Shown: piece after piece, positions 18,848-33,301 of the stretch | Numbering within the stretch: position 1 is the first letter of the stretch | How the letters are laid out: every line of letters starts with the position of its first letter | DNA from: Alphaproteobacteria bacterium | Lineage (GTDB): Bacteria > Pseudomonadota > Alphaproteobacteria > CADEGL01 | Length of the DNA: 36,031 nucleotides | Direction of reading: 5' to 3' | Assembly: GCA_026400755.1 (NCBI GenBank) | Contig: JAPLOM010000063.1 | Coordinates: 24,333 to 60,363 of the forward strand | Notes under the pieces: generated by a model | Databases searched by the model: none | What the model was told of the DNA's origin: nothing | The model's input: the letters and a program-made list of their open reading frames with translations, nothing else | Program-made: the position numbers and the translations under genes

Positions 18848-19840
18848 ATGGCCAAGACGTTCCGGGCCCTCGTGCTCGAAGAAAACCAGGGCAAGGTCAG
18901 CTCCTCGATCCGCGAACTGGACGACTCCGCTTTGCCCCAGGGCGATGTGACCGTCGCCGTCGAATACTCGACGCTCAACTACAAGGACGGCTTAGTCCTC
19001 AACGGTCTCGGCAAGCTGGTGCGCACCTATCCGCACGTTCCCGGCATCGACTTCGCCGGCACGGTCGAAGCGTCGGACAGCCAGGAGTTCAAGCCCGGCG
19101 ACAAGGTCATCCTGACCGGCTGGCGCGTGGGCGAGATGCATTGGGGCGGCTATGCCACCAAGGCGCGCGTGAAGGCCGACTGGCTGGTGCCGCTGCCTGC
19201 GGGCCTCGACACGCGCCAGGCCATGGCCGTCGGCACGGCGGGCTTCACCTCGATGCTGGCGATCATGGCGCTGGAAGCGCACGGCGTGTCGCCAGCTTCG
19301 GGCGAGGTGATGGTCACCGGCGCCGCGGGTGGTGTGGGCAGCGTGGCCGTCGCGATCCTGGCGAAGCTGGGCTACAGCGTGGCCGCTTCCACGGGCCGCG
19401 CCGAGACGCATGATTACCTGAAGGCGCTGGGGGCCAAGGCCATCATCGACCGCAAGGACATCGGCGATGCACCGGCGCGTCCCTTGGCTGCCGAGCGCTT
19501 CGCGGGCGCGGTCGACAGCGTCGGCGGCAACACCCTCGCGAACCTGCTGACCCAGGTGAAGTACGGCGGCAGCGTGTCGGCCTGCGGCCTGGCGGGCGGT
19601 GCGGAGTTGAAGACGACGGTTCTCCCGTTCCTGCTGCGCGGCGTCAACCTGTTGGGCATCGATTCGGTCATGTGCCCGAAGGAGAAGCGCAAGGCAGCCT
19701 GGGCGCGGCTCGCGAACGACCTGCCCAAGGAACTGCTCGAGAAGACGATCACAGAGGTGAAGCTCGAGGATCTCGTGAGACTCGGCGGCGACATCCTGAA
19801 GGGCCAGGTGCGCGGCCGCACGGTCGTGAAGCCGGCCTGA
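18848..19840 (+). CDS. acuI: AcuI/YhdH-type acrylyl-CoA reductase / quinone oxidoreductase
   Basis: The 330-residue protein is a zinc-independent medium-chain dehydrogenase/reductase. It has the family's N-terminal L-N-Y-K-D-G-L-V-L-N-G-L-G-K, the central V-P-G-I-D-F-A-G-T-V and G-W-R-V-G-E-M-H-W-G-G-Y, and the NADPH-binding V-T-G-A-A-G-G-V-G-S-V-A. AcuI reduces toxic acryloyl-CoA to propionyl-CoA and is widespread in marine and soil alphaproteobacteria. The ATG at 18848 has GGAAGGA upstream. It is a single-gene unit ending in a strong terminator. Confidence 0.9.
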   Translation: MAKTFRALVLEENQGKVSSSIRELDDSALPQGDVTVAVEYSTLNYKDGLVLNGLGKLVRTYPHVPGIDFAGTVEASDSQEFKPGDKVILTGWRVGEMHWGGYATKARVKADWLVPLPAGLDTRQAMAVGTAGFTSMLAIMALEAHGVSPASGEVMVTGAAGGVGSVAVAILAKLGYSVAASTGRAETHDYLKALGAKAIIDRKDIGDAPARPLAAERFAGAVDSVGGNTLANLLTQVKYGGSVSACGLAGGAELKTTVLPFLLRGVNLLGIDSVMCPKEKRKAAWARLANDLPKELLEKTITEVKLEDLVRLGGDILKGQVRGRTVVKPA

Positions 19841-20933: not shown

Positions 20934-21950
20934 TCAGGCGAAGTGGGGCATGACGCGCGTGGCGAACAGCTCGAGCGAGCGCAGCACGTCGCGGTGGTTG
21001 GCGCCGAAATTCATGTTCATCTGCATGTTGTGGATGCCCAGTGCTTCATAGCGCTTGAGTTTCTCCACGCATTGCTCTGGCGTGCCGATGATCAACGCGT
21101 TCTCGACCTCGGCCTCGGTGACCTCGACGTCGATCGGCACGATGGCGCCGCCCTTGACCAGACCGGGTGTGTTGAAGACGCGCACGAAGCGGCGGTTGTT
21201 CTCCATGGCCAGCGCCAGCTTCTCCTCGGCATCCGCGCGGCTTTCGGTCACGTAGCACATGCGCAGCATGGACAGCTTCTGCTTGGCTGCCGCGGGGCCC
21301 ACCTCGGCCACGGCGTCCATGAACGACTTGGCTTGAGCCTGCGCCGCGCCGAAGGGATCGCGCAAGGGCGTGGTCATGACGTGATAGCCTTGCTTGACCG
21401 ACCAGTTGACGGCGCCGGGCGCCAGGGCCGCGATCCAGATCGGCGGATAAGGCTTGGTCATCGGGCGCGGCGTGATGGTCAGCGGGCCGAAATCGTACCA
21501 TTGGCTTTTCCAGACTACCTCTTCCTCGGTCAGGAGCTTCTTGAGGCAGGCCAGCGCGTCGCCGAAACGGTCGCGCGATTCGCTGACCGGCACGCGGAAA
21601 TGATCGAACTCATATTGGAATGCGCCGCGTCCCAGGCCCAGTTCGATGCGCCCGTCGGTCAGGCAATCGGCTTGGGCGATTTCGCCGGCCAGGCGGCGGA
21701 TGTCATAGAAGGGCAGCACCAGCACCGCCGTGATGATCGGGATGCGCTTGGTGACGGCGGCCACCTTCACCGCGGTCAGGAGCGGGCTCGGGTGCGTCAG
21801 ATAGTTGATGAAATGGTGCTCGGGGATCGAGACGGAGGTGAAGCCGACATCCTCGGCGAACTTCGCTTCCTCCACCGTCTCCCGATACATGTGCTGGGCC
21901 GGCAGCTTCACGTCGGGCCAATAGCACGGCAGGTAGAACCCGAAATCCAT
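20934..21950 (-). CDS. Luciferase-like (LLM class) flavin-dependent monooxygenase
   Basis: The 338-residue TIM-barrel protein begins MDFGFYLPCYW. It contains the LLM core S-I-P-E-H-H-F-I-N-Y, the A-E-I-A-Q-A-D-C-L-T-D-G-R-I-E-L-G-L-G-R-G block, P-Y-P-P-I-W-I-A-A, and the C-terminal I-I-G-T-P-E-Q-C-V-E-K-L-K. Such enzymes use reduced FMN, supplied by a separate reductase, and oxygen to oxidise or cleave organic substrates. I chose the ATG at 21950, which has GGAGA six bases upstream, over an earlier ATG at 21977 that would overlap the operator. No flavin reductase gene is seen in the window. It is downstream of the MocR gene and its putative operators. Confidence 0.9.
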   Translation of the reverse strand: MDFGFYLPCYWPDVKLPAQHMYRETVEEAKFAEDVGFTSVSIPEHHFINYLTHPSPLLTAVKVAAVTKRIPIITAVLVLPFYDIRRLAGEIAQADCLTDGRIELGLGRGAFQYEFDHFRVPVSESRDRFGDALACLKKLLTEEEVVWKSQWYDFGPLTITPRPMTKPYPPIWIAALAPGAVNWSVKQGYHVMTTPLRDPFGAAQAQAKSFMDAVAEVGPAAAKQKLSMLRMCYVTESRADAEEKLALAMENNRRFVRVFNTPGLVKGGAIVPIDVEVTEAEVENALIIGTPEQCVEKLKRYEALGIHNMQMNMNFGANHRDVLRSLELFATRVMPHFA

Positions 21951-22089: not shown

Positions 22090-23481
22090 TTAGAGACCGA
22101 CGTAGCCGGGCCGTGGCCGTGCGGACAGCGCTATGGCCAAGACTTCCAGGCCTTTCGCCAATTCCGTTTCGTCGCGCACGGCACCGCCCAGGCTGACGCG
22201 CACGGCGTGGGGCACGGGATCGTGCGCGGCGGCGAAGGCCTCGGCGGGGATCACGAGCGCGCCTTGCGCCCGCGTGTAGGACGCGAACTGCAGGCCGGTC
22301 CAGGCTTCGGGCAGAAGCAGCCAGAGATTGGGGCCCGCGACCTGGGCGCGGATCTTGGCCGAGGACAGAATCTTCGCGGCCAGGGCTTGGCGGCGTTTCA
22401 TCGCCGCGCGCTGGCGCAAGACAAGTTTCTCCGCGGTGCCGTCCTCGATCAATCCGGCCGCCAGTTCCGCGGTCAAGGGCGAGGTCATCCAACTGCTGGC
22501 GCCGAGCGCGGCCGACATGCGCGCAGCACCACCCGGCGGTGTCGCCAGATAGCCGATGCGCAAGGCGGGCACCACGCTCTTGGACAGAGCGGTGACGTAG
22601 TAACTGCGCTCGGGCGCGAAGCTGGCCAAAGGCGGCGGCGGATCAACCGCGTAGGGGCCATAGACGTCGTTCTCGATGATGGTCAGTCCGTGCTTGCGCG
22701 CGACCGCGGCCACGGCCCGGCGGCGCGCAGCGCTCATCATCGCGGTCGTGGGGATGTGATGGGTGGGCAGACAGAACAGGGCGCTGGGCCGCGCCTTGCG
22801 GCACGCTTCGTCCAGCGCGTCGGGGATCAGCCCTTGGTCGTCGATCGCCACGCCCTTCAGGTTCAGCCGGCGGCTGGCCGCGATGAACTTGATGCCGGGG
22901 TCGGTCATCGTCTCGGTCAGGACCGTGTCGCCCGGCTCCGTGATCGCGGACAGGATCGTGGCCGCGCCGTGCTGCGCGCCGCTGGTCACCACCACGTCCT
23001 CGGCTTTGGCCTTCAGGCCACGCGCCCGCAGCCATGCCGCGCCCGCTTCGCGATGACGCTCGAGGCCGAGCCACGGCGGCTGATAGGCGATCATCTCGCC
23101 GAGCTTCGGATGGTCCGAAAGCTTGCGCAGCCGTTGGGCCACCGCGCGCGCATGATGTTCGTCCAAAACGGGGCAGTTGAAGGCCAGGTCGATGGCCGCA
23201 CCCGCGCCGAAGCTGGTCCAGCCGACCGTGCTGACATCCTCGGCCCGGCGCGGCGTGTCGTGGCCCAAGACGAAGGTGCCGCGCCCGACCTGGCCCGCGA
23301 CCAGGCCGCGCCGTTGCGCCTCGGCATAGGCGCGGGTCACTGTCTGCACCGAAACGCCTAGCTCGCGCGCGAATGCGCGGTGGGTGGGTAGGCGTGCGCC
23401 GACGGCCAGGACGCCCGATTCGATATCGCGCGCGATGCGTTCGACGATCGCGAGGTAACGCCGGTCGCGTCCGCCCGCCAT
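22090..23481 (-). CDS. MocR-type PLP-dependent transcriptional regulator (GntR HTH + aminotransferase fold)
   Basis: The 463-residue protein has an N-terminal GntR winged helix, with A-R-L-P-T-H-R-A-F-A-R-E-L-G-V-S-V-Q-T-V-T-R-A-Y at about 29-52 and R-G-T-F-V, followed by a class I aminotransferase-fold domain. This domain includes V-T-S-G-A-Q-H-G, E-N-D-V-Y-G-P-Y and the PLP lysine Lys301 in T-A-L-S-K-S-V-V-P-A-L-R-I-G-Y. MocR regulators sense PLP or amino compounds. I use the ATG at 23481; a GTG is directly before it. No good ribosome-binding site is seen. It precedes the monooxygenase and M19 genes on the same strand and probably controls them through the paired palindromes. Confidence 0.93.
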   Translation of the reverse strand: MAGGRDRRYLAIVERIARDIESGVLAVGARLPTHRAFARELGVSVQTVTRAYAEAQRRGLVAGQVGRGTFVLGHDTPRRAEDVSTVGWTSFGAGAAIDLAFNCPVLDEHHARAVAQRLRKLSDHPKLGEMIAYQPPWLGLERHREAGAAWLRARGLKAKAEDVVVTSGAQHGAATILSAITEPGDTVLTETMTDPGIKFIAASRRLNLKGVAIDDQGLIPDALDEACRKARPSALFCLPTHHIPTTAMMSAARRRAVAAVARKHGLTIIENDVYGPYAVDPPPPLASFAPERSYYVTALSKSVVPALRIGYLATPPGGAARMSAALGASSWMTSPLTAELAAGLIEDGTAEKLVLRQRAAMKRRQALAAKILSSAKIRAQVAGPNLWLLLPEAWTGLQFASYTRAQGALVIPAEAFAAAHDPVPHAVRVSLGGAVRDETELAKGLEVLAIALSARPRPGYVGL

Positions 23482-23505: not shown

Positions 23506-24636
23506 TCAGCGCGCCGCCCGGCCCAGCGCCTTGCCGCGCGTGCGCTTGATCGCGGCGATGGCCGGCGCGGCGTGGCTTAGGTCATCGGGATAGAAGGCGA
23601 TCTCGTCCTTGAGCAGAGGGCCGGTGTTCAGGAACCCTTCCAAGGTCGCGTGCATGCACAGCGCGGCATAGGTCACCTGATAGCCGCCTTCCTGCACCGC
23701 GACCAGGCGTCCGCCGGTGTGCTTTTGGGCCAGCTTGCGCGCCTCGTCCGCCAGCGCGCGAAAGCCCGCCATGGTCACGAGCTGGCGGCCGTTGGGGTCG
23801 AACTGGTTCGCGTCCTGGCCGTTCGCGACCAGGATCACCTCCGGCTTGTAGGCGTTCACCGCCGGCACGACGATCTCGCGCATGGCCTTCAGATAACCCG
23901 AATCGCTGGTGCCCATCGGCAGCGGCACGTTCAGGTTGAAGCCCTTGCCGCGACCCTTGCCGACCTCGTTGGCCTTGCCGGTCTGCGGATGGAACTTGGG
24001 GTGCCAGGCGCCATGGTCCATGTGGAACGACACGGTCAGCACGTCGTTGCGATGGTAGAAGCCTTCCTGCGTGCCGTTGCCGTGATGGACGTCCCAATCC
24101 AGGATCGCGACGCGCTTGGCGCCGCGCTCGATGGCGCGCTGGGCGGCCAGCGCCGTGTTGTTGAGGAAGCAATAGCCGTCGGCCGTGTCGGGCGAGGCAT
24201 GGTGCCCCGGCGGACGCACCAGCGCATAGGTCAACTTGCCCTTGCCGTCCAGCATGTGGTCCATCGCCGCGATGGCGGTGCCCGCCGCGGCCTTCACGGG
24301 ACCATAGGATTTCGGCGTGAACAGAGTGGTGCGCGTGTACCACTTGCCGCGCCCCTTGCTCTTGGTCACCCGCTCCAGGTCGGCCAGGAAGCCCGGCGTG
24401 TGGAAGGTGAGAAGCTCGTCGCGCGTGGCTTGGCGGCCCTTGTGCCATTTGATCTGCTTGGCCAGGGGGCCGTCCTTCAGGATGGACAGCATGTTGCGCA
24501 CGCGATCCGGGCCTTCCGTATGCTTTTCGGCGACGGCCAGGAACGGGTAGGGCGGAATTTCGAAGGCCGCCATGCCCATGTCGTGCTTCAGCACGTCGGG
24601 ATGCCAGAACACATGCAAGGTCTCGGTCTTGGCCAT
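23506..24636 (-). CDS. Histone deacetylase-like / acetylpolyamine amidohydrolase family protein
   Basis: The 376-residue protein belongs to the arginase/deacetylase fold of class II HDAC-like enzymes. It shows R-P-P-G-H-H-A (His145-His146 as the catalytic pair), D-W-D-V-H-H-G-N-G-T with zinc ligands Asp182 and His184, and A-N-G-Q-D-A-N-Q-F-D-P for the third zinc ligand. A conserved G-G-Y near the end supplies the tyrosine. Bacterial members deacetylate acetylated polyamines, other small amides or lysine side chains. A strong AGGAGG-like site precedes the ATG. It sits between the MocR gene and the transporter genes on the same strand, which suggests a small-molecule amide as substrate, but that is inference. 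Confidence 0.9.
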   Translation of the reverse strand: MAKTETLHVFWHPDVLKHDMGMAAFEIPPYPFLAVAEKHTEGPDRVRNMLSILKDGPLAKQIKWHKGRQATRDELLTFHTPGFLADLERVTKSKGRGKWYTRTTLFTPKSYGPVKAAAGTAIAAMDHMLDGKGKLTYALVRPPGHHASPDTADGYCFLNNTALAAQRAIERGAKRVAILDWDVHHGNGTQEGFYHRNDVLTVSFHMDHGAWHPKFHPQTGKANEVGKGRGKGFNLNVPLPMGTSDSGYLKAMREIVVPAVNAYKPEVILVANGQDANQFDPNGRQLVTMAGFRALADEARKLAQKHTGGRLVAVQEGGYQVTYAALCMHATLEGFLNTGPLLKDEIAFYPDDLSHAAPAIAAIKRTRGKALGRAAR

Positions 24637-25218: not shown

Positions 25219-25775
25219 GCCGGCGCTTTCCGGAAGCGCCGCCACCACACGATCAGGACGCTCAACGGCGCCACGACCAACAGCAGGGTCAAGAGCGGCC
25301 AGCGGAAGACGGCGATGCCCACGAACGTCGCGCCGACGAACAGAAGCACCAGCGCGTCGCGCCGATGATTGTCGAGCATCTTGAGGCCGGTCGCGACCAC
25401 GAGGCCCGCGGCGGCGGCGGCCACGCCGTCGAAGGCCGCGTCCACCTCCGGACGGTGGCCGTAGCGCGCGTAAAGCAGGCCCAACGTCACCACGACGCAG
25501 AACGGCACCAGCATCAATCCGCCGAAGGCGGCGGTGGAGCCGCGAAGTCCGTGGAAGCGCCTTCCGATGCAGACCGAGACGTTGCAAATGTTGGGGCCGG
25601 GCAGGAACTGGCAGAGGCTCAACACATCGGTGAACTCGGGCGTCGTCAGCCAGCCCTTGCGTTCGACCAGCATGCGCCGGGCGAACGGCAAGACGCCGCC
25701 GAACCCGGACGCGCCGATGGAAAGAAAGCCGAGAAAGAGTTCGCGCGGCGTGGGTGCCGACGCCGCTTGCGTCAC
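25215..25775 (-). CDS. chrA: ChrA-type transporter, first half (186 aa)
   Basis: This is a membrane protein of the chromate ion transporter family in its short, two-gene form. Visible features are G-F-L-S-I-G-A-S-G-F-G-G-V-L-P at 15-29, L-S-L-C-Q-F-L-P-G-P-N (the family's PGPN motif) and about five to six hydrophobic helices. ChrA pumps chromate, taking it as a sulfate analogue; many homologues in non-resistant bacteria move unknown anions. The start is a GTG that overlaps the amidase stop as GTGA. It needs its partner at 24687-25218, which is frameshifted here, so function is in doubt. The link to the amidase gene suggests a different anion from chromate. Confidence 0.88.
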   Translation of the reverse strand: MTQAASAPTPRELFLGFLSIGASGFGGVLPFARRMLVERKGWLTTPEFTDVLSLCQFLPGPNICNVSVCIGRRFHGLRGSTAAFGGLMLVPFCVVVTLGLLYARYGHRPEVDAAFDGVAAAAAGLVVATGLKMLDNHRRDALVLLFVGATFVGIAVFRWPLLTLLLVVAPLSVLIVWWRRFRKAPA

Positions 25776-27205
25776 GGCGTCCCCGGTCGGGGATCGATGG
25801 GCACCTTGGCGGCCAGGCCCAGCACGTCTTCAAGCTGTGCGGCGGCGGCCAGCAACGCGGCCTCGCCGCGCGGCGGCGCCACGAGCTGGAGCCCCACGGG
25901 GCGGCCGTCCTTGGTGAAGCCGCACGGCACCGAGATGGCCGGATAGCCGGTCACGGTGATGGCATACGTGACCAGCACCCAGTCGATGTAGTTGTCGAAC
26001 TTATGGCCCTCGACCTCGGCGATATAGCGCGTGTTGACGTCGAAGGGCGGCACGATGGCGGCGGGGCAGGCCAGGATGTCGTGGCTCTCGAAATAGCGCG
26101 CAAGATTGCGGCACATAGTGCCGCGCGCGTGCTCGGCGCGGCCGACGATGCCGGCATCCAGCTTCTGTCCCTGCTCGATGTTCCAGATCACGTCGGCCTT
26201 CAGCTTGTCACGGTGGTCGGCCAAAAGCTTGGAACGGTCGGTCGCGAATTTGAAGGCGCGCAGGGTCTGGAAGACGAACTGCGCATCCTTCAGATCGGGC
26301 GTAGCCTCGTCGACCTTCGCACCCACGTCGCCGAAGCGCTTGGCCGCGGCCGCGCAGATCTCGCGCACTTCGCGTTCGACCGGTGTCACGCCTAGGTCCG
26401 GGCTGAAACCGACGCGTTTGACCGGCTTGGCTTCGGCGATCGCGTCCTGAAAAGACCGCGCGGGATATTCGAGCGAGATTGGGTCGCGCGGATGCACGCC
26501 GGCTTGGGCGTCGAGAAGAAGCGCCGTGTCGCGCACGTCGCGCCCCATCGGCCCGTCGACTGAGAGCGAATCGAAGATATGCGGCTTCGGCCCATGGGCC
26601 ACGCGGCCCGGCGTTGGGCGAAGGCCGACGACCGAACAGAAGCTGGCCGGCGTGCGCAAGGACCCACCCAAATCCGAGCCGCTGGCCAGCCAGACCTCGC
26701 CGGTCGCGAGCGCGACCGCCGCGCCGCCGGAAGAACCGCCGCAGGTGAGTGCTGTATTCCATGGGTTGAGCGTCTTGCCGAACACCTCGTTGAAGGTGTT
26801 GGCGCCCGCGCCGAACTCCGGTGTGTTGGATTTCGCGATCACGACCGCGCCGCGTGCCTCCAACGTCTCGACCATGATGTCCGAGGTCTGGGGTACGTGG
26901 TTCGTGAAGATGGGCGAGCCATAGGTGGTGCGCACGCCCGCGACGTCGTTCAAATCCTTGATGGCGATGGGCAGGCCCGCCAGCCAGCCCGGGTGGTCGG
27001 ATGCGCCCGTCTTGCCCAACGCGTCGATGCGCTTGGCCGATTCGCGCGCGCGGTCCAGGCACAAAGTGGGCAGGGCGTTGACCTTGGGCTCGACCTCGGC
27101 GATGCGCGCCGCCGCCGCCTCGATCAGCTCTTCCGGCTTGATCTCCTTGCGCTTCAGGCGGCGCACGGCCTCGCGCGCGGACAGGCGGCACAGTTCGCTG
27201 ATCAT
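25772..27205 (-). CDS. Amidase (amidase-signature family)
   Basis: The 477-residue enzyme has the amidase-signature core with catalytic triad Lys83 (P-I-A-I-K-D), Ser158 in G-G-S-S-G-G and nucleophile Ser182 in G-S-D-L-G-G-S-L-R-T-P. It would hydrolyse a carboxamide to acid and ammonia. It is related to GatA, but the gatB and gatC genes are absent and the C-terminus is typical of stand-alone amidases. A strong GGGGGAG site lies five bases before the ATG. Its stop overlaps the chrA start. It follows the triple-RidA gene after 106 bases that contain a pair of palindromic repeats. Confidence 0.9.
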   Translation of the reverse strand: MISELCRLSAREAVRRLKRKEIKPEELIEAAAARIAEVEPKVNALPTLCLDRARESAKRIDALGKTGASDHPGWLAGLPIAIKDLNDVAGVRTTYGSPIFTNHVPQTSDIMVETLEARGAVVIAKSNTPEFGAGANTFNEVFGKTLNPWNTALTCGGSSGGAAVALATGEVWLASGSDLGGSLRTPASFCSVVGLRPTPGRVAHGPKPHIFDSLSVDGPMGRDVRDTALLLDAQAGVHPRDPISLEYPARSFQDAIAEAKPVKRVGFSPDLGVTPVEREVREICAAAAKRFGDVGAKVDEATPDLKDAQFVFQTLRAFKFATDRSKLLADHRDKLKADVIWNIEQGQKLDAGIVGRAEHARGTMCRNLARYFESHDILACPAAIVPPFDVNTRYIAEVEGHKFDNYIDWVLVTYAITVTGYPAISVPCGFTKDGRPVGLQLVAPPRGEAALLAAAAQLEDVLGLAAKVPIDPRPGTP

Positions 27206-27311: not shown

Positions 27312-28541
27312 TTAATCCGTCATCGCGATGGCTTCGAACTCGACCGTCATGCCGTCATAGGCCAGATGCGGCACGGGCACGCCGGTGGAGGCGGGGCCGG
27401 GCTTCTTGAAATACGTCGAGCGCACGTTGACGTTGCCGTGCAGCTCGTCCGGCCCGTCCTTGCCTTTGTAGTAGGCGTTCATCTTCACCACGTCCTTGAA
27501 GTTGAGGCCGTAGTGGGAGAGGACGCGTCCGACATAGTCCATGCACATCTTGGACTGCTTCGGCATGTCGTTCGCGTCCAGCACCTCGCCCTTGTCGTTG
27601 AGCGGCGCTTGGCCCGCGACGAAAACCATGTTGCCGCACTGCAGACCGTGCTGGAACGGCAGGTGCAACTTCGGCCAGTCCCAGTGGTTCTTCAACCAAA
27701 CCTTTTTCTTGGGCAATTTCTTGCCGTCTTCGCCCAGCATGGCCCAGGCATCCATCTGGAAGCGCGCGCCGCGCGGCGCGACGGTGGCCAATGAGATGCC
27801 CGTGGCCGAAGGGCCGGGGTCGGGGAAGAATTCCTTGCGCAGTCTCGCGCTCTTCTCCCACTCCTCGACCGTACCGCCCGCCACGTACCAGGTGTTCAGC
27901 TTCACCACGTCGGTCTGATCGGCGCCGAACGCCTGCAGAACTTGCAGAAGATTGTTCTGCACGACGCGCGCCTGCTCGACCGTGTCGTTCGGGTGCAAAA
28001 CGGCTCCCTTTCGGTCGCGGGCCTTGATGCCACTGGTGAAGATCATCTGTCCGGCGCGCACGCCGTGGACGAAGGGGCGGCCCAGGTCTTCGAAGTCGGG
28101 CAGGGCGGCGGCCAGCTTCGTGATGCGCTTTCCGTCCGGACGGCGCATGGCGTAGGTGTCGATCTCGACCATCATGCCGGGATAGGCCAGGTGCGCCAGC
28201 GGCACGAAGCCGATGGCGATGGGGCTGTCGACGATGCCGACCTGCTTGGCGATCTCGGCGCGGTACGCATCCTCGTCCACGCTGCCGTCGGTCTTGTAGA
28301 AGACCACCAGCTTGACGATGTCTTCGCAGTCCGCGCCCAGCTCGCCCAGGATGCGCTTGATGTGGCCGACGGAGACTTCCGTCTGGGCATAGAGGTCGTT
28401 CGGATGCTGGACCTCGCCGTTGCCCTTCATGTCCACCTGGCCGGCCAGGATGATCATGTCGCCCGCGCGTACGCCCATGCTGTAGGGGATCTCGACCTTC
28501 AGGCTCCAATGGCCGGACGGATAGGCGAATTTGCGCGGCAT
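27312..28541 (-). CDS. Triple RidA-domain protein A
   Basis: The 409-residue protein holds three RidA (YjgF/YER057c/UK114) domains in a row: about 17-132, 156-268 and 294-408. Each has a G-x-M-I/V-F/I-x-x-G strand, a Q-T-x-x-x-x-x-N/V helix, a V-V-K-L/M strand and a final V-E-I/F-x-A-x-A-M. Single-domain RidA forms trimers, so this chain could fold as a one-piece trimer. The arginine of RidA imine deaminases (in P-x-R-x-x-V) is absent from all three domains, where the loop reads D-S-P-I-A-I-G, G-P-S-A-T-G and G-P-A-S-T-G. So deaminase action is unlikely or uses other residues. I chose the ATG at 28541 because GGGGAGGAG precedes it. It is divergent from the ABM-like pair. Confidence 0.85.
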   Translation of the reverse strand: MPRKFAYPSGHWSLKVEIPYSMGVRAGDMIILAGQVDMKGNGEVQHPNDLYAQTEVSVGHIKRILGELGADCEDIVKLVVFYKTDGSVDEDAYRAEIAKQVGIVDSPIAIGFVPLAHLAYPGMMVEIDTYAMRRPDGKRITKLAAALPDFEDLGRPFVHGVRAGQMIFTSGIKARDRKGAVLHPNDTVEQARVVQNNLLQVLQAFGADQTDVVKLNTWYVAGGTVEEWEKSARLRKEFFPDPGPSATGISLATVAPRGARFQMDAWAMLGEDGKKLPKKKVWLKNHWDWPKLHLPFQHGLQCGNMVFVAGQAPLNDKGEVLDANDMPKQSKMCMDYVGRVLSHYGLNFKDVVKMNAYYKGKDGPDELHGNVNVRSTYFKKPGPASTGVPVPHLAYDGMTVEFEAIAMTD

Positions 28542-28586
28542 GTGCTCCTCCCCTGACATGGACGGGAAACCTTAGACACCGTGACC

Positions 28587-28615
28587 GGCCGCCACAACCT
28601 TGTTAGGTTGCGGCC
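28587..28615. promoter_or_regulatory. Inverted repeat in the divergent RidA-A / ABM1 intergenic region
   Basis: Arms CAACCT (28595-28600) and AGGTTG (28605-28610) surround TGTT, extended by GGCCG on the left (after a three-base bulge) and CGGCC on the right. It lies midway between two divergent start codons, fitting an operator or a leader hairpin for the ABM1 message. No T-run follows, so it is not a terminator. Confidence 0.4.
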
Positions 28616-28644
28616 CTGTGCTCGCGATCCCAGGGGGAAACGCC

Positions 28645-29232
28645 ATGTACGCACGGCTCAATTATGTTGGGCTCAAGCCCGAGCTGATGACTGAATTGAA
28701 GGCGTTCTGGCGCGAGCGCGTCGGCGCCTACAAGGGACTGACGAAAGGGCACCTGCTGCTCGACGGCGACACCGGCTGGTCGCTGTCGGTCGTCTTGTTC
28801 GACAGCGAGGCGTCCATGCACGAGAACACCTATTCCACGCTTCAGGGCGTGGCCAAGGACGCGACTCGCTTCCGCACCTCGGAGCCGGAGGTCCATATGC
28901 GTGAGGTGCTCGCGCACCTGCAGGGCCATGCGGGAAAGATCGGCTATGCCCGTGTGGTGGACATGGAGATGAAACTGAAGGACGTGGATGACGCCGCGGC
29001 AACCTGGCCGGCCCTGGTCGGCACCGGTAAGAGCGAAGCGGGTTTCCGCCACGCCTATTTCTGCGGCGACCGGAAAACGGGAAAAATCGCCTCGGTTACG
29101 TTCTGGGGCTCCAAGGCGGACGCCAACGAATCCAGCGGCACTTTCCAGAAGGCGCTTCAGCCGCACAAGGCGCTGATGACGGCGCCGCCCAAGATCACGC
29201 ACTGGGATGTGGTGGTCGTCGTCGGCGGGTGA
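28645..29232 (+). CDS. Two-domain ABM-like (dimeric alpha/beta barrel) protein 1
   Basis: The 195-residue protein seems to be an internal duplication. Residues 1-60 (MYARLNYVGLKPELMTELKAFW ... L-S-V-V-L-F-D-S) and 100-160 (Y-A-R-V-V-D-M-E-M ... K-I-A-S-V-T-F-W-G-S-K-A-D-A) each follow the strand-helix-strand-strand order of antibiotic-biosynthesis-monooxygenase or stress-responsive alpha/beta-barrel domains. It ends in T-H-W-D-V-V-V-V-V. Such domains normally pair as dimers; here two are fused. No catalytic residue set is recognised. A GGGGGA site precedes the ATG. It is a tandem paralogue of the next gene and is enclosed by two triple-RidA genes on the opposite strand. Confidence 0.65.
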   Translation: MYARLNYVGLKPELMTELKAFWRERVGAYKGLTKGHLLLDGDTGWSLSVVLFDSEASMHENTYSTLQGVAKDATRFRTSEPEVHMREVLAHLQGHAGKIGYARVVDMEMKLKDVDDAAATWPALVGTGKSEAGFRHAYFCGDRKTGKIASVTFWGSKADANESSGTFQKALQPHKALMTAPPKITHWDVVVVVGG

Positions 29233-29278
29233 TGCGCCCGTCGCCGCCGATGTGAATCAAAGCAAAGAGGAAGAATCG

Positions 29279-29872
29279 ATGTACGCACGCCTGAACTATG
29301 TCGGCATGAAGCCCGAACTGATGGAGGAGCTGAAGCCGTTCTGGCGCGCGCGCGTCGAGGAGTTCAGCAGGGTCGAGAAGGGTTATTTCCTTCTGGAAGA
29401 GGGCAACCGGGCCTGGACGCTGTCGGTCGTTCTGTTCGAGAGCAAGAGCGCGATGGACGCCAATACCCATAACACGCTAGGCGGCGTGGCCCAGCAGGCC
29501 GCCCGCTTCCGCACCACCGAACCCGACCTGCATCCGCGTGAGGTGCTGGCCCACGTGCCGGGACATGCGGGCAAGACTGGCTATGCCCGCGTCGCCGAGG
29601 TCGAATTCAATCCCAAGGACGTAGACGAGGCGTCTGCCATCTGGCCGAGTTCAATCGACGCCTATCAGGCCGAAGCGGGCTTCCGTCATGCTTACTTTTG
29701 CGGTGACCGGGGGACGGGGCGTGTGGCCTCGATCTCGTTCTGGGCTTCCAAGGCCGATGCCGAGGCCAACGAGGCCAGCGGCGCGTTCGTGGCGGCGATG
29801 GCGCCGCACAAGGCATTGATGACCGCAAAGCCGAAGATCACCCATTGGGACGTGGTGGTCGTGGTCGGCTGA
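29279..29872 (+). CDS. Two-domain ABM-like protein 2 (paralogue of the preceding gene)
   Basis: The 197-residue product aligns along its whole length with the preceding gene: MYARLNYVGMKPELMEELKPFW at the start, R-F-R-T-T-E-P, R-E-V-L-A-H, G-H-A-G-K-T-G-Y-A-R-V, A-G-F-R-H-A-Y-F-C-G-D-R and a K-I-T-H-W-D-V-V-V-V-V-G end. Most residues are the same, pointing to a fairly recent tandem duplication. It shows the same two-domain pattern. A GAGGA site lies eight bases before the ATG. Its stop is four bases from the stop of the convergent triple-RidA gene B. The function is not known. Confidence 0.65.
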   Translation: MYARLNYVGMKPELMEELKPFWRARVEEFSRVEKGYFLLEEGNRAWTLSVVLFESKSAMDANTHNTLGGVAQQAARFRTTEPDLHPREVLAHVPGHAGKTGYARVAEVEFNPKDVDEASAIWPSSIDAYQAEAGFRHAYFCGDRGTGRVASISFWASKADAEANEASGAFVAAMAPHKALMTAKPKITHWDVVVVVG

Positions 29873-29876
29873 CGCC

Positions 29877-31082
29877 TTAGTCGGTCATCGCCAGCACTTC
29901 GACCGACAGCATCGCACCGGGAAAGGCCAAGGCGGGCACGGGCACGCCCGTCGAGGCCGGCCCAGGCTTGGCGTAGTAGGTCGAGCGGATGTTCAGGTTG
30001 GCGTGCAAATCGTGCGGCGTCGGCCCGCCGACATAGAAGATGTTGGTCTTCACGACCTGGCCGAAATCCACGCCGAACTCGCCGAGCAGCGCCTTGATGT
30101 CGCCCATCACGCGGTGGGTCTGCTTTTCGACGTCCTTCGGATACGCGACCGCGCCTTTCGCATCCAGCGGCACCTGGCCGCCAACGAAGATCTTGTCGCC
30201 GCATTGGAGCGCGTGGACGAAAGGTTGCTCGGCGGGCCAGCTCCAATGGCCGCCGGGCCGCAGGGGCTTGCGCGCGAGGCGCTTGCCGTCGCGGCCGCGC
30301 ATGGCGGTGGCCTCGATACGGATACGCGCGCCTTTGGGCGAAAGATGGGGCAGCGGCACGTCGGTGACGATGGGACCGGGTGCCGCGAAGCGGCGCGCGC
30401 GGATGACGGCGATTGTGTCCCAAGCCTCGCGCCCACCGGTGAAATAGATGCTCAGCTTCACCACGTCGGCCAAATCGGCGCCGAGCGCGCCGAGATGCCG
30501 TTCCAGCGCGTCGAACACGGCTTCGGTCTGTTTGGGCAGATCGCCGGGCGCGATGACCGCGCTCGTGGCGTCGCGCGGCTCGATGCTGCCGACATGGATC
30601 GTCTCACCGGCCTGCACGGCGGGCGTGAAAGGCGCGGGCAGCCAGCCGGGCGATGGAGCTGCACGGCGCAGCGTTTCGCCCACCACGGCGACTGCGTCGA
30701 TCTCCACCACCATGCCCGGATAGTAGAAACAGTCGAGCGGGGTCGGCACGATCACGGCCGCGCCGCCGCCCGCCTTCTTCACCATGGCGGCGATGGCGCG
30801 CACATAGGCGTCTTCGTCCACCGATCCGTCGGTCACGTAGAAGACCTGCAGCCGCGTCAGGTCCTTCGGTGCGGCGCCCGCTCTGCCGATCACATCGTAG
30901 GCGTATTCCATCGTCTTTTCGGTCTGCGCCAGCAGATCGTCGGGGCGCATCGGCTTGCCATCCGCATCCAGGTCGCATTGGCCGCAGGTGAAGACCATCT
31001 CGCCGCAGCGGATGGCCTTCGGGTACGGCACCTCGACCTGCATCGACCACAGGCCTTCGGACATGACGTGCTGGCGGCGCAT
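29877..31082 (-). CDS. Triple RidA-domain protein B
   Basis: The 401-residue protein is a distant paralogue of triple RidA A, with domains at about 18-134, 150-262 and 284-400. The third domain is the most conserved between the two (N-I-R-S-T-Y-Y/F-x-K-P-G-P-A-S-T-G-V-P-V-P). As in protein A, none of the three domains has the deaminase arginine; the loops read G-G-G-A-A-V-I-V-P, G-P-I-V-T-D-V and G-P-A-S-T-G-V. The ATG at 31082 starts 10 bases after the amidohydrolase stop; an in-frame ATG at 31064 is the alternative. It is the last gene of the DUF1185/hydrolase/amidohydrolase operon. Confidence 0.85.
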   Translation of the reverse strand: MRRQHVMSEGLWSMQVEVPYPKAIRCGEMVFTCGQCDLDADGKPMRPDDLLAQTEKTMEYAYDVIGRAGAAPKDLTRLQVFYVTDGSVDEDAYVRAIAAMVKKAGGGAAVIVPTPLDCFYYPGMVVEIDAVAVVGETLRRAAPSPGWLPAPFTPAVQAGETIHVGSIEPRDATSAVIAPGDLPKQTEAVFDALERHLGALGADLADVVKLSIYFTGGREAWDTIAVIRARRFAAPGPIVTDVPLPHLSPKGARIRIEATAMRGRDGKRLARKPLRPGGHWSWPAEQPFVHALQCGDKIFVGGQVPLDAKGAVAYPKDVEKQTHRVMGDIKALLGEFGVDFGQVVKTNIFYVGGPTPHDLHANLNIRSTYYAKPGPASTGVPVPALAFPGAMLSVEVLAMTD

Positions 31083-31092
31083 AACGGACAAC

Positions 31093-31941
31093 TCAGCCTT
31101 CCGGCCAGAGCAGTTCGATGGGGCGGCGGTAGATAATGTCCTCGATGATCTCGGACGGGAATTTCGGCATCGCGACGCCGGGGCCCCAGTCGTTGATGGC
31201 ACGGAAGGAATCCATCGCCTGCTGCGTCGTCTGGATCGGGAAGTCCGAACCAAACAGGATCTGGTCGGTCACTTTGTAATCCAGCGCCAACATCAGCGCG
31301 TTGTAGCACTGCCACTTGCGGTAATAGCGGGCGGAGAGGTCGGTGAAGATCTGCTTGTGCTTGCGCAGCAGGACGACGGTCTCGCCGGTCCAGGGCTGGC
31401 CGATATGGGCCACGATCATGCGTAGCTTGGGGAACTCGCGGCCGATCTTGTCGAGCAGGATCGGGTTACCCCATTCCAGCATGGACTTGGCGGCATAGGC
31501 GGCGGACTGGTGCCACAGAAGCGGCACCTTGAGCCGTTCAGCCACTTTGTAGACGCGCATGGCCGTGTCGCACCACGGATCGAAGCCGGCATAGACGGGC
31601 GACAGCTTGATGCCCTTCACGCCCAGTTCCTTCACGGCCTGCTCGACTTGGCGCGGCGCCATGGGGTCGGTGCAGTCGATGCCCATGAAGGGATAGGCGC
31701 GGCCCGGAAAGCGCGCGCAGTACTGGGTCACGAAGTCGTTGGGCACGCGGATGCCAAGCTGGTTGTGACGCAGGGCCAGGACGACGAACTTCTCCGCCGT
31801 GCCCGCGACCAGCTTCTCGTGCGCGGGCGGACTCGCGTCCATCTGCCCGCCGGTACGCGAGCCCATCTCCTCGCGTGATTCTTCGCCCAGATGCTCGGGC
31901 AGCCACAGATTGGTGTGCCAGTCGATCAGGCAATCGGTCAT
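31093..31941 (-). CDS. Amidohydrolase-2 family TIM-barrel protein
   Basis: The 282-residue protein resembles the ACMSD-like amidohydrolase 2 group, whose members decarboxylate or hydrolyse small acids. It has I-D-W-H-T-N-L-W (His9, Asn11), L-L-W-H-Q (His144), I-V-A-H-I-G (His179) and F-G-S-D-F-P (Asp233). The usual HxH pair of the first strand is H-T-N here, so one metal ligand is altered. The ATG at 31941 overlaps the hydrolase stop as ATGA, giving tight coupling. With an alpha/beta hydrolase and RidA domains beside it, a role in ring or amide breakdown is plausible but not shown. Confidence 0.82.
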   Translation of the reverse strand: MTDCLIDWHTNLWLPEHLGEESREEMGSRTGGQMDASPPAHEKLVAGTAEKFVVLALRHNQLGIRVPNDFVTQYCARFPGRAYPFMGIDCTDPMAPRQVEQAVKELGVKGIKLSPVYAGFDPWCDTAMRVYKVAERLKVPLLWHQSAAYAAKSMLEWGNPILLDKIGREFPKLRMIVAHIGQPWTGETVVLLRKHKQIFTDLSARYYRKWQCYNALMLALDYKVTDQILFGSDFPIQTTQQAMDSFRAINDWGPGVAMPKFPSEIIEDIIYRRPIELLWPEG

Positions 31942-32726
31942 GGCGGATAGGTCTCCGCGAGAAAGGAGAGAAGGGCTGCGTTCATCTCCGCAACCCCTTC
32001 CATGGGTGCGAGATGGCGCAGTTGGGGCAGGATCTCGAGTTTCGCGTTCGGGATTTCCGCCGCCATCTGTTTTGCCATGCGCGGACTCGAGCCTTTGTCG
32101 TGCTCGGCGGTGATGACCAGCGTCGGACATGAAATGCCGCCGAGCTTGCCGGCCAAATGTGGATCGCCTTCGGCAAAGACGCGATAGGCAGCGGCATACG
32201 CCTTGTGGTCGTTGGTGGTGACGCGCTGGCGCACCATCGCCTCCACCTCCGGATGCGCCCTGCGGAATTCGGGCGTCAGCCAGCGGTCGAGGGCCGCGTC
32301 CACCGTGGCGTTCGGCCCTTCGACGTCGATCGCGTCGGCGCGCGCGATCACGGCGGCGCTCTCTTCCGGCGTACGCTTGTAGACCGCGTTCATGATGACG
32401 GCCGCGCCGAGCCGCTCCGGGTGGGTCAGCGCAAAAGCCTGGGCAATCATGCCACCCAAGGAAAAGCCGACCAGCGCGAACGTCTCCGCGCCGGCCTGAT
32501 CGGCCACGCCACGCACCAGATCGGCGAACAGCGCCAGGCTATAGGGGCCGGGTGGCTTCTCGGTCTGTCCGTGGCCGAGATTGTCGTAGCTGATGACGCG
32601 ATAGCGTTGGGACAGGCCGTCCACCTGGCCCTTCCACATGTGGCGGTCCATGCCCAGCCCGTGGATCAGGATGACGGGCTTGCCCTTGCCGTCCTCCTGC
32701 CACGTCACGTCATAGCGCCGCGCCAT
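31938..32726 (-). CDS. Alpha/beta hydrolase
   Basis: The 262-residue protein has the full alpha/beta hydrolase set: oxyanion H-G-L-G (22-25), nucleophile Ser89 in G-F-S-L-G-G, Asp210 in T-A-E-H-D and His238 in L-R-H-L-A-P. Its overall shape is close to 3-oxoadipate enol-lactonases and to RutD-like hydrolases, but the substrate cannot be fixed from sequence. Its start overlaps the DUF1185 stop by one base and its stop overlaps the amidohydrolase start, so it is the second gene of a four-gene operon. Confidence 0.88.
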   Translation of the reverse strand: MARRYDVTWQEDGKGKPVILIHGLGMDRHMWKGQVDGLSQRYRVISYDNLGHGQTEKPPGPYSLALFADLVRGVADQAGAETFALVGFSLGGMIAQAFALTHPERLGAAVIMNAVYKRTPEESAAVIARADAIDVEGPNATVDAALDRWLTPEFRRAHPEVEAMVRQRVTTNDHKAYAAAYRVFAEGDPHLAGKLGGISCPTLVITAEHDKGSSPRMAKQMAAEIPNAKLEILPQLRHLAPMEGVAEMNAALLSFLAETYPP

Positions 32727-33301
32727 CAGGCGATGCCCATCTCCTTAGCGTCCTGGCGGCGGTCGCCGATGCGCGCGTGCGGGCGACCGCCTTGCGCGCC
32801 GCCGATGGCGATGACGATCTCGTCCGGCCCAGGCGCATCGGGAATCGAGAACTCAAGCGTCAGGAAGTGGGACCGGCGCGGCTCGTCGGTCTTGTGCGTC
32901 ATGGGAATGGTGATCGCGCCACCCGGACCGCTGCGCTTGTTGGAGAAGGAGAGCGGGCTGGTGCCCGCCACTTCGTCGCGGAAGATGTTGCCGAAGCGCA
33001 GTGTGTGGATCAGCGCCGAGGCATGCTCGATCTCGCCGTTGCTGCCCACGTTGGCCGCCTTGCCGTAGGCCTCGATGGCGTCCGCCGAGCCCAGCAGCGG
33101 CACCAGCCGGTCGACCAGAAGGCGTCCCAGCTTGGGTGCGATCTCCAGGATCAGCGGTTTCAGGTCGGCCACGAAGCCCTGCCCCGCCCAGGGATTGCGG
33201 ATCACGGCGGCGGCGGCGGCCATGCGCGGCACCGGATTGGATTCGCGGGCGCCGTCCTTGTGGATGTCCTCGACGTAGGTGACCAGTTTCCGCAGTTCCA
33301 C
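32726..33301 (-). CDS. DUF1185 / amino acid synthesis family protein
   Basis: The 191-residue protein starts at GTG 33301 (VELRKLVTYVEDIHKDG), with AAAGGG seven bases upstream. V-P-R-M-A-A-A-A-A-V-I-R-N-P-W-A-G, G-N-I-F-R-D and S-F-S-N-K-R-S-G-P-G-G are as I recall them from the amino acid synthesis (DUF1185, PF06684) family, whose function is not established. The open frame extends upstream to 33448 but that part is not family-like. It is the first gene of the operon leading to the alpha/beta hydrolase, amidohydrolase and triple RidA B. It is divergent from the protease gene. Confidence 0.78.
   Translation of the reverse strand: MELRKLVTYVEDIHKDGARESNPVPRMAAAAAVIRNPWAGQGFVADLKPLILEIAPKLGRLLVDRLVPLLGSADAIEAYGKAANVGSNGEIEHASALIHTLRFGNIFRDEVAGTSPLSFSNKRSGPGGAITIPMTHKTDEPRRSHFLTLEFSIPDAPGPDEIVIAIGGAQGGRPHARIGDRRQDAKEMGIA

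Follow-up and report, generated by a model that had tools for sequence, protein, structure and literature searches.

Fusions in which three RidA domains follow one another in a single polypeptide have been in print since 2015, when researchers named them "3x-RidA", with EF_0115 among the examples, and presumed them to be covalent trimers (Niehaus et al. 2015, PMC4433059). According to published work, deaminase activity in the RidA family hinges on Arg105 (PMC5619798). Loss of this residue is common, and Rid4-Rid7 proteins, which are without it, are called 'mysterious' in the 2015 paper, where the role of Rids that lack the deaminase Arg is posed as a question (PMC4433059). The window considered here, an alphaproteobacterial stretch of 36,031 nucleotides, carries two genes of the 3x type, designated A and B (Table 1).

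Two genes with three fused Rid domains

The earlier note on this DNA had assigned three RidA domains to each of the two genes, and the assignment stands. Each encoded protein contains three PF01042 (RidA; Rid or YjgF/YER057c/UK114 family) stretches above the curated Pfam cut-off, with E-values (7e-46 for gene A and 1.8e-42 for gene B) that place the matches far beyond chance. Besides PF01042, the Pfam search of both proteins returned just a sub-threshold DUF4298 match, and Rid models alone were matched in NCBIfam, TIGR00004 'Rid family detoxifying hydrolase' being barely over its cut-off with both proteins.

Table 1. Features of the window (first block) and of other loci with triple-Rid genes (last four rows, coordinates preceded by the locus)
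Feature	Position	Strand	Remarks
Luciferase-like monooxygenase	20934..21950	(-)	further along the strand of gene A
MocR-type regulator	22090-23481	(-)	
Histone-deacetylase-like amidohydrolase	23506-24636	(-)	
Amidase (PF01425)	25772..27205	(-)	directly downstream of gene A
3x-Rid gene A (P0001)	27312..28541	(-)	409 aa, intact ORF
Gene A, D1	28125-28541	(-)	
Gene A, D2	27699-28124	(-)	
Gene A, D3	27315-27698	(-)	
ABM-like protein a	28645..29232	(+)	between the 3x genes, opposite strand; without Pfam match, homologous to protein b
ABM-domain protein b (PF03992, weak)	29279..29872	(+)	opposite strand to the 3x genes
3x-Rid gene B (P0002)	29877..31082	(-)	401 aa, intact ORF
Gene B, D1	30672-31082	(-)	
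Gene B, D2	30261-30671	(-)	
Gene B, D3	29880-30260	(-)	
Amidohydro_2 family hydrolase/decarboxylase	31093..31941	(-)	directly upstream of gene B
Alpha/beta hydrolase, PcaD/RutD-like	31938..32726	(-)	overlaps the Amidohydro_2 gene
AA_synth (PF06684, DUF1185)	32726..33301	(-)	first gene of apparent operon with gene B
Putative DUF71/Dph6-type ATP-binding protein	L023:582-1418	(-)	near the fifth triple-Rid gene
MlrC (microcystinase-like, M81) family gene	L023:6089-7585	(-)	directly after the fifth triple-Rid gene
Mesorhizobium plasmid locus	L066:7983-16127		contains a triple-Rid gene
Mesorhizobium plasmid locus	L069:2610-10754		contains a triple-Rid gene

The E. coli RidA, human and RutC sequences that served as alignment references agree with expectation at each of the residues marked. 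The alignment places I110 (D1), A246 (D2) and S385 (D3) of gene A, and I111, V239 and S377 of gene B, opposite Arg105 of E. coli RidA. None of the six domains thus has the deaminase Arg, just as the earlier note had stated. Its further statement that the Arg-bearing loop is replaced also holds for all six, although the motif offered as its example, GPASTG, is found solely in the D3 domains; the replacements are PIAIGF and AAVIVP in D1 and GPSATG and GPIVTD in D2 of genes A and B, respectively. Glu120 is present in D1 of both genes and in D3 of gene A, and is absent from both D2 domains and from D3 of gene B, where Ser takes its place.

AlphaFold2, supplied with alignments of 20 sequences, gave confident models of both chains (gene A: pLDDT 93.4, pTM 0.93; gene B: pLDDT 92.9, pTM 0.92). 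When these models were compared with known structures, the full chain of gene A superimposed on chorismatase with Z 28 and an rmsd of 2.9 Å over 294-295 residues, and that of gene B with Z 28 and 2.8-2.9 Å over 289-292 residues. For both models chorismatases alone, among the matches listed, span all three domains; taken singly, the domains resemble RutC and AmnE, with Z ~20. The inter-subunit salt bridge of Arabidopsis RidA is formed by K136 and E182 (PMC4960622), whose E. coli equivalents are K73 and E122; across the 22 closest triple proteins the K73-equivalent is basic and the E122-equivalent acidic in 66/66 domains. Taken together, the model confidence, the chorismatase superposition and the retention of this interface pair make it well supported, as a prediction, that each chain is a single-chain pseudotrimer closing into a RidA-type ring, in agreement with the built-in trimer that had been envisaged from the sequence.

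Unequal domains and the association between positions 91 and 105

Arg105 is likewise absent throughout a set of 29 related triple proteins (0/87 domains). Among the 22 closest of these, the residues that stand in its place differ by domain: I, V, M, C or L in D1, A, G or V in D2, and S or T in D3 (22/22). Other positions are likewise distributed unevenly, with Glu120 kept in D1 (22/22) and mostly in D3 (18/22) and replaced in every D2 by R, K or Q (22/22), Arg found at position 91 in D2 (19/22) and D3 (22/22), and Thr106 and Gly107 conserved in D3; Gly31 and Gln32, like Glu120, are retained in most domains. Asn occupies position 87 in 23/23 D3 domains. The persistence of these domain-specific residues from paralog to paralog, in each of the D1, D2 and D3 series, supports the earlier suggestion that the three sites can differ.

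The same series are visible in a quick tree of 133 columns and 202 rows, whose deep forks are uncertain. The D1, D2 and D3 domains mostly cluster by position, D1 and D3 being closer to one another, and the main branches have support values between 82 and 97; the exceptions are a long-branched group (E D3) placed elsewhere and the Mesorhizobium proteins, which fall at the base. As far as the tree resolves, this position-wise grouping points to one old triplication that took place before the paralogs arose.

The Ser or Thr fixed at position 105 of D3 can be read as the trace of a different chemistry carried out on the same architecture. According to this unlikely alternative, either one cleft or the central barrel would have been reshaped to carry out a lyase or ring-opening reaction, comparably to chorismatase or cyanuric acid hydrolase, and the loop Ser/Thr would act as nucleophile or acid/base. 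Chorismatase is the best full-length structural match, and the concatenated YjgF-like protein AtzD uses Ser-Lys dyads (PMC3758960); however, no chorismatase or AtzD family model in Pfam or NCBIfam was matched by sequence, AtzD is not among the structural matches listed, and Ser105 and Thr106 are also found in many single-domain Rids.

Single-domain proteins also place the loss of Arg105 in a wider context. It is missing from 67/112 single-domain members in 21 genomes of the class, and 36 of these 67 carry a basic residue (Arg or Lys) at position 91, versus 0/45 of the members with Arg105 (Fisher P 5e-11); in a scan of 115 columns for basic residues, position 91 ranked second only to 105 itself. 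Because the sequences are related and contain only two supported independent pairs for 91/105, with a sign test that is not significant, the relationship amounts to an association and falls short of demonstrating a swap. F147 of Arabidopsis RidA, which contacts pyruvate (PMC4960622), occupies position 87, a single turn of the helix away from position 91, and this spacing suggests that residue 91 may face the cleft. Ten of the sampled single-domain Rids (e.g. L130, L139 and L187) have Trp at position 105, with Lys in eight and Arg in one at position 91.

Loss of Arg105 is widespread among single-domain Rids and often goes with a basic residue 91; it is not peculiar to the fusions, and the earlier suggestion that absence of the Arg points to a binding role is not established. 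A possible, on balance doubtful, alternative drawn from these alignments is that a large share of the Arg105-less Rids, the fused trimers included, moved the carboxylate anchor from the 105 loop to the 91 helix and remained working acid-binding enzymes, and that in the fused trimers two or three of these sites have diverged from each other within one chain. The basic helix residue, found only where Arg105 is missing, is a target for mutation, and a single-chain trimer lets each of its three sites be altered alone, which a homotrimer cannot.

Distribution, gene neighbourhood and proposed function

Triple genes number five in most members of the source family and are rare elsewhere in the class. 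Of 30 PF01042 matches in the source genome, 15 lie within five triple genes; with the gene A protein as query, 4/5 family genomes gave five full or near-full-length matches and the fifth gave four. A triple-protein profile found a match in 14/385 genomes of the class, five of them within the source family, and in a phylum-wide sample 3x proteins were present in 1/398 genomes, namely the source genome. The named relatives come from uncultured, mostly alphaproteobacterial public assemblies, and a few more reside on rhizobial plasmids.

In 5/5 family genomes gene A lies next to the amidase gene, accompanied by one or more ABM-like genes on the opposite strand. This constancy supports the earlier proposal of a tie to neighbouring enzymes in the case of the amidase, and the stable pairing indicates a substrate class to try. 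Most downstream neighbours of gene A, the luciferase-like monooxygenase gene included, are found within the genus only. Gene B adjoins the Amidohydro_2 gene in 3/5 family genomes, and the overlaps among the Amidohydro_2, alpha/beta hydrolase and AA_synth genes suggest a four-gene operon with gene B. The AA_synth gene is absent from 3/5 family genomes (G002, G003 and G004); its product belongs to a family (DUF1185) with a chorismate-mutase-like fold (PMC2954203). No Rfam RNA was found in the window between positions 19000 and 35500.

Two further genes of the window can be described by their relatives. The solved relatives of the histone-deacetylase-like amidohydrolase include chains named dimethoate hydrolase and propanil hydrolase, and the MocR-type regulator scores 490 bits against a cut-off of 480 for the NCBIfam EhuR model, with no ectoine genes recognised beside it.

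Elsewhere, triple genes adjoin a branched-chain/urea-type ABC transporter, an SDR gene or an MlrC-family gene, and the theme shared by the triple-gene neighbourhoods is amide-bond hydrolysis together with uptake of nitrogen compounds. The fifth triple-Rid gene, besides its MlrC-family neighbour, has near it a protein of DUF71/Dph6 type as judged by a look at its sequence; in eukaryotes, a DUF71/Dph6-type enzyme is fused to Rid domains. The two Mesorhizobium plasmid loci combine a triple-Rid gene with genes for an M24 peptidase, DoeB-like and EutB-like proteins and an amino acid ABC transporter, and resemble ectoine-utilisation loci.

The Mesorhizobium loci and the match of the MocR gene to the EhuR model led to consideration of a role for the window in ectoine catabolism. 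This role was set aside, as the window shows no recognisable gene for ectoine hydrolase and none of the copies in the genome attains the EutD cut-off. The ectoine hydrolase (M24 family) model does find 33 sub-cut-off places in the source genome (G000) and 33-40 in four relatives, a large M24 enzyme set for the 3-4 Mb genomes of this bacterial family.

The reading preferred here, held tentatively and at somewhat below an even chance, is that each protein is a single-chain pseudotrimeric Rid enzyme of an amide or nitrogen-compound catabolic locus and acts on an imine/enamine-type acid. In a continuous chain the three clefts between domains would be non-equivalent, and at least one of them may function as a binding site for a small acid. 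There the carboxylate would be held by an Arg of the helix that leads into the loop (E. coli position 91), namely R374 together with N370 in D3 of gene A and R366 with N362 in D3 of gene B, with help from the Ser/Thr-Thr-Gly loop that replaces Arg105-Ser-Cys. The protein could then accelerate the hydrolysis of an intermediate of imine/enamine or enamide type delivered by adjacent amidase, amidohydrolase or monooxygenase steps, in a pathway that would break down an amide or N-heterocyclic compound. The luciferase-like monooxygenase, the alpha/beta hydrolase and the DUF1185 protein may make up a trigonelline-like pathway set, which we treat as a lead only.

A DUF1185 relative, TgnF, considered alongside this lead, has been described as a stimulator of a partner enzyme (PMC7913881), and a somewhat improbable alternative gives the triple proteins a comparable, binding or allosteric part: catalysis would have been lost with Arg105, leaving a metabolite sensor or a partner or stimulator of the amidase or amidohydrolase. 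The absence of Arg105 from all domains, the retention of gene A beside the amidase and the finding that the Rid4-7 proteins assayed so far have no imine deaminase activity (PMC9714295) are in line with such a part. The polar cleft-type residues that are conserved (Glu120 in D1 and D3; Arg91, Thr106 and Gly107 in D3) fit both this alternative and the enzyme reading but suggest more than a bare scaffold. That the proteins carry out the usual RidA reaction despite the missing Arg appears most improbable. Family membership, the presence of Glu120, Gly31 and Gln32 in most domains and the narrow passing of the TIGR00004 cut-off speak for it, but the equivalent Arg-to-Ala change in Arabidopsis RidA leaves 2.2% of activity (PMC4960622), and many single-domain Rids in the genome, several of them with Arg105, could do that job.

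Comparison with known systems

Chorismatases of the FkbO/Hyg5 type (PDB 4bps, 5a3k and 5ag3) share with the predicted models a single-chain RidA-like fold that superimposes over its full length (Z 28, 2.9 Å); they differ in that identity is 12-16% and no family model was matched, whereas all three domains here are recognisable PF01042 domains. AtzD and barbiturase, with their 'Toblerone' fold, are likewise presumed concatenations of three YjgF-like monomers, but AtzD has a central-barrel active site, Ser-Lys dyads and four-stranded units (PMC3758960). AtzD did not appear among the matches listed in the fold search, and the resemblance is kept as an analogy only. RutC and AmnE-type deaminases, too, are Rid-fold proteins encoded alongside hydrolases in catabolic operons; they are, however, single-domain homo-oligomers with the Arg. 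The imine deaminase group as a whole (RidA, Rid1-3) has Arg at position 105, in contrast to 0/6 domains here and 0/87 in the wider set.

Rid4-Rid7 and the other Arg-less single-domain Rids share the absence of Arg105 with the present proteins; they usually keep Glu120, as do D1 of both genes and D3 of gene A but not the D2 domains or D3 of gene B. Being single-domain, they presumably form three equal sites, whereas the three domains described here have diverged. The 3x-RidA fusions themselves likewise have three tandem RidA domains per chain and are presumed covalent trimers, closure being predicted for the present proteins and EF_0115 being compared by description. The portions of the 2015 paper considered here give no account of their Arg state, of conserved inter-domain differences or of function (PMC4433059). 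Set against that class, four new leads emerge: the expansion throughout the family, the conserved differences that make the three domains unequal, the amidase as a constant partner, and the association of a basic residue 91 with the loss of Arg105.
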